Shown here piece by piece: positions 21,025 to 26,175 of a stretch of DNA of 64,000 bases. The stretch lies in NCBI RefSeq assembly GCF_014643695.1, contig NZ_BMJY01000002.1, positions 131,676 through 195,675 on the forward strand, given 5' to 3'. The stretch is from Microbacterium album (GTDB taxonomy: Bacteria > Actinomycetota > Actinomycetes > Actinomycetales > Microbacteriaceae). How positions within the stretch are numbered: position 1 is the first letter of the stretch; the number at the start of each line of letters is the position of its first letter. Below the pieces are notes generated by a model. The model ran no database searches, was not told the DNA's origin, and saw only the letters and a list, made by a program, of their open reading frames with translations. The position numbers and the translations under genes were made by a program.

Positions 21025-22428
21025 TCAGAGCTTGCCGGTCGAGCGCCAGCCGCCCTGGTACTCCGTGCGGGCCGTCTCCGCGTAGGGGACGGGGCTGACG
21101 ATGGCGCGGACCTCGATCTGCTTGTGCGGCTCGACCGTGGTCTTCTTCGTGCCGCCGTCGGGCTCGCCCCACACCACGCGCACCTCGGCGCCGATGGGCA
21201 GGTCACGGTCGACGGTCGCGAGCGACAGGCCGCGCTTCTCGTTCGCGGTCACGCCCGTGAACAGCGACAGGCCGACGGTCTTGCCGTCCGCGTCGATCAC
21301 CTTGTCGAAGTTGCTCGAGCCGTAGTTCGCGTTCGGCAGGTCGAAGAACTGGTAGCCCTCCGACTCGCGGTCGAGCACGGTCGTGAGGATCTTGCCCAGG
21401 TCCTCGTCGTTCCAGGCCAGCGTCACCTTGCGGCGCTGGGTCTCCGGGTCGATCTTCTCGAGCGCGTCGCGACCGATGAAGTCGTGGTCGAACTTCACGA
21501 ACGAGCCGTAGCCGAGCTCCCACGGGTTGAGGTAGTAGTCCTCGATGTCGTCCGAGACGAACGAGCCGTCGATGGCGTTGATCGCCTCGTAGCTCGTGAC
21601 CGGCAGCCACTCGCGGTACGCGCGCTCGGCCTCGCTCGAGTAGATGGCGGGCAGCGGCGAGGGGATCCAGCCGGACTCCAGGGTGTTCGACGAGTAGGCC
21701 CGCGACCCGCAGGGCTCGATGCCGAACTCCTGGCCGGCCTCGAGGATCGCCTCGCGGATCTTGCCGTGGGACTCGTACGGCCCCCACAGCTCCAGGCCGG
21801 GCGCGCCCGCCATGCCGTGGCGCAGGGTGCGCACCTGCTCGCCCGCGATCTGGAGCTCGCCCATGTGGAAGAACTTGACCTTCTCGAGCGTGCCGCCGTT
21901 GAGCTTCTCGATGATGGCCCACGCGTTGGGGCCCTGGATCTGGAAGCGGTAGTAGTCACGGTGCACGGCCTGGCCGTACGGGCGCGACGGCGAGCGGTCG
22001 TCGTACTTCCACTCGACGTCGTAGCCGCCGGTCTCGGCGTGGAACTGCAGCCAGTTCGCTCCCGGGGCCCGGCCGACGTACACGAACTCGCCTTCCGCCT
22101 CGTGGAAGAGGATGCCGTCGCCGATCACGCCGCCGTTCGAGGCGGTGGGCACGAACTGCTTCGCCGTGCCGACGGGGAAGTTCGCGAACGAGTTGATGCC
22201 CGTGTCGCTCAGCAGCTTGAGGGCATCCGGTCCCTTCACGAAGAAGTTGACCATGTGGTGCGTCTGGTCGAAGAGCACGGCGGAGTTGCGCCAGGCCTTC
22301 TGCTCGCGCCGCCAGTTCGAGAACTCCGTGGGCACCACGGGGTAGATGTAGGTGCCGAGCTGGGAGTTGCGCAGCAGCTCCACGGTGTTTCCGTGCTCGT
22401 CGAGCAGCTCCTGCAGGTTGTTCGCCAT
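21025..22428 (-). CDS. ligM: Tetrahydrofolate-dependent aromatic O-demethylase, LigM/DesA-like (GcvT fold)
   Basis: Transfers the methyl group of a methoxylated aromatic acid (vanillate, 3-O-methylgallate or syringate) to tetrahydrofolate. At 467 residues it has the length of LigM and DesA and is much longer than glycine-cleavage T-proteins. Recognisable GcvT-fold segments include ALFDQ-like [21 protein letters not shown] near residue 50, [14 protein letters not shown] in the middle and [24 protein letters not shown] precedes the ATG. The gene diverges from galB-galC-galD and a ring-cleavage dioxygenase, which favours 3-O-methylgallate (product gallate) or vanillate. Which methoxy acid is used cannot be settled from sequence. 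Confidence 0.88.
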
Positions 22429-22616
22429 GAGACTCCTTCTGTGGATGTGTCGGACGTCGTTGTCTTGCGAGGAGGCGGAGTCGCGCGGGATGCGAACAGC
22501 ACCGTTCCATCGTCGCCAGGATTGTAGACAGAATCTTGACCATTACGCCAGAGGGTGATTCACTGAACGGCAATATCCCCCTTCCCTGTGGGGAGGCCGA
22601 CCGAACGGATGACTCT
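22429..22616. promoter_or_regulatory. Divergent promoter region of the O-demethylase and gal genes
   Basis: 188 bases between divergent starts. An AT-rich core at 22521-22541 holds TACAAT on the minus strand (-10 candidate for the O-demethylase, 22526-22521) and TTGACC on the plus strand (22536-22541, -35 candidate for galB with a weak TTCACT 17 bases on). The sequence TTGTAGACAGAATC in this core is a plausible GntR-type operator half; no regulator gene adjoins. Confidence 0.45.
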
Positions 22617-23372
22617 ATGGCAGAGACCGAGCCGTCGCTCCTCGTCGTGAGCGCGCACGCTGGAGACTTCGTATGGCGCGCGGGCGGCGCGATCGCCGCC
22701 GCGACGCTGCGGGGCGAGAAGGCCACCGTGGTGTGCCTGTCCTACGGAGAGCGAGGAGAGTCCGCCAGCCAGTGGCTCGCCGGCAAGCCGCTCGACGAGA
22801 TCAAGGCCATCCGCCGCGATGAGGCCGCCGCGGCCGCCGGGGCGCTCGGCGCGCAGATCGAGTTCCTCGACCTCGGCGACTACCCGCTGCTGGAGACGCC
22901 CGAGTCGATCCAGAAGCTCGTCGACGTGTACCGCCGCGTCCAGCCGACCGTCGTGCTGACCCACCCGCTGTCCGACCCGTACAACGGCGACCACCCCGCC
23001 GCGGCCCGCATGGCCCTGCAGGCGCGCGTCCTCGCCCAGGCGATCGGCGTCGCGAACTCGGACGGCACGTACCCGACCAAGGACGAGATCATCGGCGCCC
23101 CGCCCGTGTTCTTCTTCGAGCCCCACCAGCCCGAGCAGTCCGACTTCAAGCCGAACGTGCTGCTCGACATCACCGAGGCCTTCCCGCTCAAGCGCAAGGC
23201 CATGGAGTGCCTGCCCGCGCAGAAGCACATGTGGGAGTACTACACGGCCCTCGCGGTGCGTCGGGGCGTGCAGGTCAAGCGCAACGCGGGGCCGAACCTG
23301 GGCCTGCCGCACGACACGATGGGCGAGGCGTACATGCGCTACTACCCCCAGGTCACCGGGGTGCTGGAGTGA
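22617..23372 (+). CDS. galB: 4-oxalomesaconate hydratase (GalB-like, PIG-L/LmbE fold)
   Basis: Adds water to 4-oxalomesaconate to give 4-carboxy-4-hydroxy-2-oxoadipate in gallate and protocatechuate 4,5-cleavage pathways. The protein (251 residues) has the LmbE/PIG-L metal-binding pattern in GalB form: SAHAGDFVWRAGGAIA at the N-terminus, GERGESASQWLAGKPLDEIK, and HPLSDPYNGDHPAAA for the remaining ligand. The LmbE fold is otherwise known for N-acetylglucosaminyl deacetylases, but the WRAGGAI form and the genes for aldolase and tautomerase immediately downstream decide for GalB. ATG 22617 has only a weak GGA upstream. Confidence 0.9.
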   Translation: MAETEPSLLVVSAHAGDFVWRAGGAIAAATLRGEKATVVCLSYGERGESASQWLAGKPLDEIKAIRRDEAAAAAGALGAQIEFLDLGDYPLLETPESIQKLVDVYRRVQPTVVLTHPLSDPYNGDHPAAARMALQARVLAQAIGVANSDGTYPTKDEIIGAPPVFFFEPHQPEQSDFKPNVLLDITEAFPLKRKAMECLPAQKHMWEYYTALAVRRGVQVKRNAGPNLGLPHDTMGEAYMRYYPQVTGVLE

Positions 23373-25175: not shown

Positions 25176-25224
25176 ACCCCCACCCGCTGTCAGAGACGAC
25201 CGCACCGACCCCGAGGAGAGACAA

Positions 25225-26175
25225 GTGACCGACTCCACCGCCTTCGACGTGGCGCACCTCGCCAACGTCGAGCTGTACACGCCCGAGTTCGAGAAGAGCC
25301 TGTGGTTCTTCCGGGACCTGCTCGCCATGCGCGTCGTCGCCGAGGACGGCGACTCGGTCTACCTGCGCACGTGGGACGAGTACGAGCTCTACACCATCAA
25401 GCTCACGGCCAAGGACGCGGCCGGCGTCGGCCGCACCTCGTTCCGGGCGGCGAGCCAGGAGGCGCTCGAGCGCCGTGTCGCGGCGATCGAGGCGACCGGC
25501 CTGGGCAAGGGCTGGGTCGACGGCGAGGTCGGCACGGGACCGACCTTCCTCTTCCACGACCCCGACGGTCACGAGATGGGCATCTACTACGAGACCGAGC
25601 GGTACGTCGCGGGCGATGACGACCGCCCGGCCCTCAAGAACCAGGCCTCCGCCTTCCCCGGCCGCGGCGTCAACGCCCGCCGCCTCGACCACATCAACTA
25701 CCTCGCCAAGGACGTCGAGGCCAACGGCGAGTTCCTCGCCCAGGCCCTCGGCATGCGCGAGAGCGAGCGCATCCGCCTCGACAGCGGCAAGTTCGCCGCG
25801 TGGTGGTTCCACTTCAGCCTGAAGTCCTACGACGTCGTGTACTCGGACGACTGGACCAAGCACGGCAACCGCCTGCACCACATCGCGTTCGCGCCCGACA
25901 CGCGTGAGGACATCCTCAAGGCCGCCGACATCTTCCTCGAGAACGGCATCCACATCGAGTCGGGCCCGCACAAGCACGCCATCAACCAGACGTTCTTCCT
26001 CTACGTGTGGGAGCCGGGCGGCAACCGCATCGAGTTCGCCAACGCCGGCGCCCGCCTGCTGCTCGACCCCGACCAGCCGGTCGTGGAGTGGAGCGAGGCC
26101 GAGCGCAAGAAGGGCCAGGCCTGGGGCATGAAGACGATCGAGACGTTCCACACCCACGGCACGCCGCTCGTCTGA
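25225..26175 (+). CDS. VOC-family (type I) extradiol ring-cleavage dioxygenase
   Basis: Fe(II)/Mn(II)-dependent ring-cleavage enzyme with two vicinal-oxygen-chelate modules (316 residues). Metal ligands in the C-terminal module are seen at H156 (LDHINYL), H219 (RLHHIAF) and E270 (NRIEFA), with second-sphere His196, His248/251 and Tyr260 spaced as in catechol 2,3-dioxygenases. It starts at GTG 25225 behind GAGGAGAG. Position at the end of galB-galC-galD implies it makes 4-oxalomesaconate from gallate, or opens a related catechol. That job is done by unrelated type II LigAB/GalA enzymes in characterised proteobacteria, so the family is unexpected here. Confidence 0.88.
   Translation: MTDSTAFDVAHLANVELYTPEFEKSLWFFRDLLAMRVVAEDGDSVYLRTWDEYELYTIKLTAKDAAGVGRTSFRAASQEALERRVAAIEATGLGKGWVDGEVGTGPTFLFHDPDGHEMGIYYETERYVAGDDDRPALKNQASAFPGRGVNARRLDHINYLAKDVEANGEFLAQALGMRESERIRLDSGKFAAWWFHFSLKSYDVVYSDDWTKHGNRLHHIAFAPDTREDILKAADIFLENGIHIESGPHKHAINQTFFLYVWEPGGNRIEFANAGARLLLDPDQPVVEWSEAERKKGQAWGMKTIETFHTHGTPLV

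Follow-up and report, generated by a model that had tools for sequence, protein, structure and literature searches.

We analyzed a 64,000-nucleotide stretch of the Microbacterium album genome (contig NZ_BMJY01000002.1, positions 131,676 to 195,675; hereafter the window) and found a compact cluster of genes for aromatic catabolism at 21025–26175. A gene for the O-demethylase LigM on the reverse strand diverges from a forward-strand galB-galC-galD set, which is followed by a gene for an extradiol dioxygenase of the VOC superfamily (Table 1). This layout had been proposed in an earlier description made from the letters and translations of the window (the sequence-only reading), and all five genes were recovered with profile, PDB and coordinate evidence. 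Their content and comparison across genomes point to a gallate cluster in which the VOC (type I) dioxygenase replaces the LigB-fold enzymes GalA and DesB, a reading to which we assign a probability of roughly three in four.

The O-demethylase finds its best PDB match in LigM itself (5x1i/5tl4, 731 bits). GalB reached no NCBIfam model at its cut-off in the NCBIfam scan and was assigned by its PIG-L fold and by 5cgz, a 4-oxalmesaconate hydratase scoring 252 bits against 35 bits for the next structure. GalC passes its general model and falls just under the cut-off of the narrower TIGR02798 (293 bits, cut-off 304.5), and the top structure for GalD, 6p3j, is a (4E)-oxalomesaconate isomerase. Every step after ring cleavage is thus represented, as the sequence-only reading had stated, with GalD, GalB and GalC each matched to a solved enzyme. 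The three gal genes overlap, by 4 bp between galB and galC and by 11 bp between galC and galD. The most likely start of the dioxygenase gene is the GTG at 25225, behind GAGGAG, and not that of the longer open reading frame from 25066; with this start it lies 49 bp beyond the end of galD, without overlap. A scan for promoters and terminators found nothing promoter-like and a single terminator-like site, a chance-level result.

On the evidence of its predicted structure, the dioxygenase is a type I extradiol enzyme with the two-module VOC fold and the His-His-Glu site that had been read from its translation. The AlphaFold model (predicted local distance difference test, pLDDT, 86) matched AphC, catechol 2,3-dioxygenase and homoprotocatechuate dioxygenase (HPCD) over nearly the full length, with Z scores of ~41, ~37 and ~33, respectively, and the metal ligands H156, H219 and E270 align to H155, H214 and E267 of HPCD. 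The domain scan found no PF02900, the LigB-fold hallmark of the type II enzymes GalA and DesB, in the protein. The HpaD model TIGR02295 was clearly missed (183 bits, cut-off 321.4), a separate HpaD of the same genome scoring 439.6. We aligned the window's protein with 66 of the 74 proteins having a usable gene call among 80 loci (six loci were without a call and eight proteins were left out), and inferred a tree from these 67 clade sequences and 10 family sequences. The VOC clade was monophyletic in the tree, and the ligands were conserved in 67/67 (H156), 66/67 (H219) and 67/67 (E270) of the aligned members. A tyrosine at position 202 was found in all 77 clade members, and histidine in all nine non-clade type I sequences compared. 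Tyr202 aligns to H200 of HPCD, the second-sphere catalytic histidine, which the VOC enzyme is thus without. The importance of His200 is stated in the excerpted text of PMC10760822, and the position has been varied in several PDB entries. We infer that Tyr202 may take over the role of this histidine.

The host genome, rated 100% complete (45 contigs, 3.4 Mb), was searched for enzymes that could compete for the ring-cleavage step. A hidden LigB enzyme was rejected as a candidate, no PF02900 protein being found in the genome, which also answers the suggestion in the sequence-only reading that a LigAB-type enzyme might lie elsewhere. The lack of LigC and LigI noted in that reading was likewise borne out: no LigI orthologue was detected at E ≤ 1e-30 with a family LigI query, the wider amidohydrolase family being represented by seven proteins or fragments, and no LigC orthologue was found, the best matches being partial and of 49 bits or less. 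Both subunits of protocatechuate 3,4-dioxygenase (pcaHG) are present above cut-off, and vanillate-derived protocatechuate therefore has a route of its own. The separate HpaD, above its cut-off, and two further genes resembling catechol 2,3-dioxygenase each have their own neighbors.

We then considered the neighborhoods of 90 nonredundant VOC-clade loci (the window, 10 family loci and 80 named loci, less one duplicate), counting genes within 9 kb at 70 bits or more, with LigA excepted from the bit threshold. GalC was found in 77, GalD in 78 and either GalB or LigJ in 74 of the 90, the two hydratases never occurring together, and among the 78 loci with enough flanking sequence 64 contained GalC, GalD and a hydratase. 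LigA, LigB and LigC were found within 9 kb of none of the 90, and LigI in three (L072, L090 and L092; 60–74% identity). LigM-family genes accompanied 39 loci and were absent within this distance from 51. Around VOC relatives that fall outside the clade (seven loci), no gal gene reached 70 bits, and a looser search gave one partial GalC match (33%, in L033). The adjacency of the VOC and gal genes is not due to chance, as many actinobacterial genomes contain the same cluster. Two VOC loci without local gal genes (L064 and L078) have LigJ, GalC, LigI, LigC and a fused LigAB at other sites in their genomes, so that most of the 4-oxalomesaconate route is at hand; no GalD was found in the stretches seen.

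The hydratase step showed variation of its own. LigJ, which is unrelated to GalB, stood in its place beside the VOC gene in 10 of the 90 loci (L070, L072, L079–L084, L092 and L126), and this exchange is a second nonhomologous swap in the same pathway.

Within the bacterial family of the host (199 genomes), GalD at 437 bits or more was found in 23 genomes. A clade VOC gene lay directly downstream of GalD in 11 of these and a LigB gene within ~3.5 kb of it in 10; a further one, G156, carries GalC, GalD, LigJ and LigI up to the end of its contig. LigI (E ≤ 1e-30) was absent from all 11 VOC genomes but present in 11 of the 12 other GalD genomes (Fisher P = 9.6e-6). Clusters converting protocatechuate to 4-oxalomesaconate need both LigC and LigI, and the LigAB clusters of the family carry both: among 12 LigAB-type loci, nine had all of LigA, B, C, I and J alongside GalC and GalD, two were truncated at a contig end and one had a fused LigAB but no GalD. 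On the GalD pathway of this family, the VOC gene and the LigAB-LigC-LigI set take each other's place.

The association extended to a sample of the class (374 genomes), in which GalD was adjacent in 16 of the 17 genomes with the VOC gene and present anywhere in nine of the 357 others (Fisher P = 6.7e-21, a value that overstates independence, as 10 of the 17 belong to one genus and three, G000 (the host), G164 and G194, were counted in the family sample as well). In the seventeenth, G533, the VOC gene has GalC as its neighbor and LigJ two genes off. Nine of the 25 class genomes with GalD are without the VOC gene, and the short stretches seen around GalD contained GalA in two, LigJ in two and no ring-cleavage gene in the rest. 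In one of the GalA genomes, G353, the order GalB-GalC-GalD is followed by GalA (NF009904, 754 bits, cut-off 412) exactly at the position of the VOC gene. In the other, G392, GalD has a GalA (765 bits) immediately upstream, and GalB and GalC are on the other strand in a rearranged cluster. The search of the class genomes found no clade VOC gene in either. Comparative genomics thus supports a nonhomologous replacement of GalA by a type I enzyme, and the sequence-only reading, which had proposed such a replacement, is strengthened both by the exclusion within the family and by the finding of GalA at the VOC position. We consider it fairly probable, somewhat less so than the reading of the cluster itself, that a widespread actinobacterial family of type I gallate dioxygenases, with tyrosine for the second-sphere histidine, replaced the type II GalA in the same operon.

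In the pathway that we propose, LigM would demethylate 3-O-methylgallate to gallate with tetrahydrofolate. The VOC enzyme would bind gallate at a divalent metal coordinated by H156, H219 and E270 and, we infer, split the ring between C4 and C5. The hydroxyl at C5 would lead to a carboxylate instead of an aldehyde, giving 4-carboxy-2-hydroxymuconate/4-oxalomesaconate, and with such a product neither LigC nor LigI would be needed. GalD would then tautomerize 4-oxalomesaconate, GalB hydrate it and GalC split the product to pyruvate and oxaloacetate. With few exceptions, the VOC clusters lack LigC and LigI and yet hold all the steps from 4-oxalomesaconate, which argues that cleavage yields 4-oxalomesaconate, or its enol, directly; a direct product of this kind fits gallate, whose C5 is hydroxylated. 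Linkage and exclusion point to the VOC enzyme as the one that would convert gallate to 4-oxalomesaconate. The sequence-only reading had named gallate or 3-O-methylgallate as the logical substrate, and of these two we favor gallate.

A DUF1932/6PGDH-like dehydrogenase was found within 9 kb in 39 of the 90 VOC loci, lying between GalC and GalD in L040–L044. The proposed pathway needs no dehydrogenase.

The main rival to gallate is 3-O-methylgallate itself, which the VOC enzyme would cleave to the methyl ester CHMOD and/or 2-pyrone-4,6-dicarboxylate, an esterase or LigI then forming 4-oxalomesaconate; in NGC7 and sphingomonads, an esterase or LigI handles the methyl ester or pyrone from 3-O-methylgallate, and in other bacteria the type II enzymes DesZ and MgaAB cleave the compound (both PMC12314914, in excerpt). 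Methylated substrates should be at hand in the 39 loci with a LigM-family gene nearby, and three loci have LigI. However, an adjoining LigM would convert 3-O-methylgallate to gallate, the majority of the loci are without a LigM-family gene within 9 kb, and no LigI was found at that distance in 87 of the 90 or, at E ≤ 1e-30, in the 11 VOC genomes of the family, although the CHMOD esterases (MgaC/DesC) were not searched for. Furthermore, the enzyme that G353 has at the VOC position is a named gallate dioxygenase. We therefore favor gallate and regard direct cleavage of 3-O-methylgallate as unlikely.

Two other substrates can be weighed against the same data. An ordinary dioxygenase of alkyl or plain catechols, standing beside gal genes by accident, would explain the AphC-like relatives of the enzyme and its score of 305.5 bits for the catechol 2,3-dioxygenase model TIGR03211, which misses the cut-off of 320.2 by little. 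Such an accident is hard to reconcile with GalD being adjacent in 16 of the 17 class-level VOC genomes, with a Tyr202 that is specific to the clade or with the HpaD and two catechol 2,3-dioxygenase-like genes that the genome holds in other settings; chance adjacency was ruled out by the recurrence among the 90 loci and the class genomes, and we find this explanation very improbable. Protocatechuate, with the VOC enzyme as a 4,5-dioxygenase and the DUF1932 dehydrogenase standing in for LigC, is the least credible of the alternatives. LigM also yields protocatechuate from vanillate, and the DUF1932 protein recurs as described above. Nevertheless, the stand-in would leave LigI missing, an enzyme that this route requires and that was found neither in the 11 family VOC genomes (E ≤ 1e-30) nor within 9 kb in 87 of the 90 loci. 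Nine of the 12 LigAB loci carry the whole protocatechuate set together with GalC and GalD. The host has pcaHG, and L064 and L078 hold a protocatechuate-type LigAB cluster apart from the VOC gene. The missing LigC and LigI and the presence of pcaHG led us to reject protocatechuate as the substrate.

Several observations weigh against the gallate reading. At the level of the protein, the TIGR03211 score lies close to the cut-off, and the nearest enzyme with a stated substrate is AphC, which at 33–37% identity acts on an uncharged catechol. R243 and R293 of HPCD, which we take to be its carboxylate-binding residues, correspond to Ser246 and Gly297, and the VOC enzyme is for that reason unlikely to hold a carboxylate as homoprotocatechuate enzymes do. 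The C-terminal end of the model is poor (pLDDT <50 at 301–313), and one clade member, from a metagenome-assembled genome (L076), has arginine at the ligand position H219, indicating a dead copy or an assembly error. At the level of the loci, GalD is missing within 9 kb from 12 of the 90, of which some lie on short contigs, and the neighbor counts are phylogenetically nonindependent. LigB-fold proteins of some kind were found in 25 of the 46 named VOC genomes searched (out of 50 chosen from the 80 named loci), and the absence of a rival enzyme is thus clean for only part of the set; by what we presume to be their order membership, seven of the 25 are Micrococcales and 18 lie outside, and the one protein checked, from L142, exceeded the cut-off set for a 3-carboxyethylcatechol dioxygenase model. 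Among the 11 family VOC genomes, G036 and G044 also hold LigB-fold proteins, located away from the cluster. Finally, one of 14 control genomes (the Escherichia coli and Bacillus subtilis ring) also scores above the cut-off of the GalD model NF033377, so that GalD alone is no proof of a gallate pathway, and in the family genome G085 GalD is matched at 485 bits, with neither a clade VOC gene nor a LigB protein present. The scanned neighbors of GalD in G085 were two 2-aminoethylphosphonate-type ABC transporter genes and one short-chain dehydrogenase/reductase.

The closest known counterpart of the cluster is the gal pathway of Pseudomonas putida KT2440 (GalA, GalD, GalB and GalC), with which it shares the lower pathway and the gene order B-C-D, KT2440 having the operon galBCD (PMC12314914, in excerpt). 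The ring there is cleaved by the LigB-fold GalA and here, on our reading, by the VOC enzyme; LigM is attached here, and the regulatory gene nearby is of the MarR type, in contrast to the LysR-type GalR of KT2440 described in the same excerpt. The syringate/3-O-methylgallate route of Sphingobium SYK-6 (DesA, LigM and DesB) is similar in that LigM feeds gallate to a cleavage giving 4-oxalomesaconate, but DesB is type II (PMC3962378, in excerpt) and the cleavage enzyme here type I. The gal clusters of G353 and G392 (L240 and L241) encode GalB, GalC and GalD proteins 58–67% identical to those of the window and have GalA instead of the VOC enzyme. An actinobacterial enzyme known to open gallate to 4-oxalomesaconate is PcaA of Pseudarthrobacter phenanthrenivorans Sphe3; according to the excerpted text of PMC8431788, it is a type II enzyme, mainly a protocatechuate 4,5-dioxygenase of the protocatechuate pathway, unlike the type I enzyme here.

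Among solved structures, AphC (7q2a, identical in its aligned sequence to 3lm4 from Rhodococcus RHA1) shares the type I two-module fold, was crystallized with 4-ethylcatechol and has histidine at the second-sphere position in place of Tyr202. The closest solved sequence is 9wgj (355 bits), entitled 'Catechol 1,2-dioxygenase', which shares Tyr202 and is placed with the clade at a support of 0.999; a search of open-licence PubMed Central for its code found no paper. We considered the catechol 2,3-dioxygenase of Bacillus ligniniphilus (PMC8671467) as a possible match for it and rejected it, as nothing ties the two; the words gallate and gallic do not occur in the excerpted text of that paper. Among the matches listed in a search of open-licence PubMed Central, with subscription journals outside its range, no title or abstract opening described a type I gallate dioxygenase.

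Table 1. Annotated features of the cluster and of the surrounding window
Feature	Position	Strand	Evidence
Carotenoid oxygenase, lignostilbene-dioxygenase-like	1575–3104		PF03055; NF053778 526 bits, cut-off 800 not reached
Branched-chain-amino-acid-type ABC transporter genes	11294–16067	-	Type judged from translations
DUF1932/6PGDH-like dehydrogenase	16270–17085	+	PF09130, PF03446
MarR-type regulator	18921–19358	+	PF12802; best NCBIfam Saro_0803 family 49.6 bits, cut-off 200
Aldehyde dehydrogenase	19456–20955	+	PF00171 562 bits; 0 of 25 NCBIfam models listed at cut-off
LigM, tetrahydrofolate-dependent vanillate/3-O-methylgallate O-demethylase	21025–22428	-	NF047885 911 bits, cut-off 580
GalB, 4-oxalomesaconate hydratase, PIG-L fold	22617–23372	+	PF02585; 5cgz 252 bits
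GalC, 4-carboxy-4-hydroxy-2-oxoadipate aldolase	23369–24079	+	NF006731 319 bits, cut-off 179; 3noj 247 bits
GalD, 4-oxalomesaconate tautomerase	24069–25175	+	NF033377 499 bits, cut-off 440; 6p3j 392 bits
VOC (type I) extradiol dioxygenase, proposed gallate dioxygenase	25225–26175	+	H156, H219, E270; Tyr202

The wider window has the look of an island for lignin aromatics, with two aldehyde dehydrogenases, two MarR regulators and ABC transporters. The MarR-type gene upstream of the cluster may regulate the aromatic genes, and the aldehyde dehydrogenase next to it possibly acts on aromatic aldehydes that feed LigM. The ABC transporter genes, homologues of which (clusters 13, 16, 17, 19 and 26) recur in 9–14 of the clustered loci, may form an uptake system. 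Near the start of the window, at 1575–4579, a carotenoid oxygenase gene is followed by an aldehyde dehydrogenase gene, and the island probably also handles lignin stilbenes.

Elsewhere in the genome we observed a paralogous VOC dioxygenase, 44% identical (C7:133676–134605), with a TRAP transporter, an aldehyde dehydrogenase and an FAA-hydrolase-family protein as its neighbors (L031). The genome holds seven LigM-family O-demethylase genes, four of them above the LigM cut-off; further sites lie at ~113–118 kb of contig C7 (L196), where the pair flanks a formyltetrahydrofolate deformylase gene, and at ~101–104 kb of contig C11.

Gallate and syringyl lignin are abundant sources of plant carbon. 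What is new in the cluster is likely a variant ring-cleavage step, by a type I enzyme, in an otherwise known gallate pathway. A recent survey of syringate pathways credits a genome with the gallate branch only if it has DesB, LigAB or GalA (PMC12314914, in excerpt), and genomes using the VOC enzyme would consequently be scored as incapable of degrading gallate. If our reading is correct, it would correct the annotation of a protein that resembles catechol 2,3-dioxygenase, extend the substrates of the VOC superfamily to gallate and provide a natural test of extradiol catalysis without the second-sphere histidine, and it would fill a gap in the lignin catabolism of actinobacteria.

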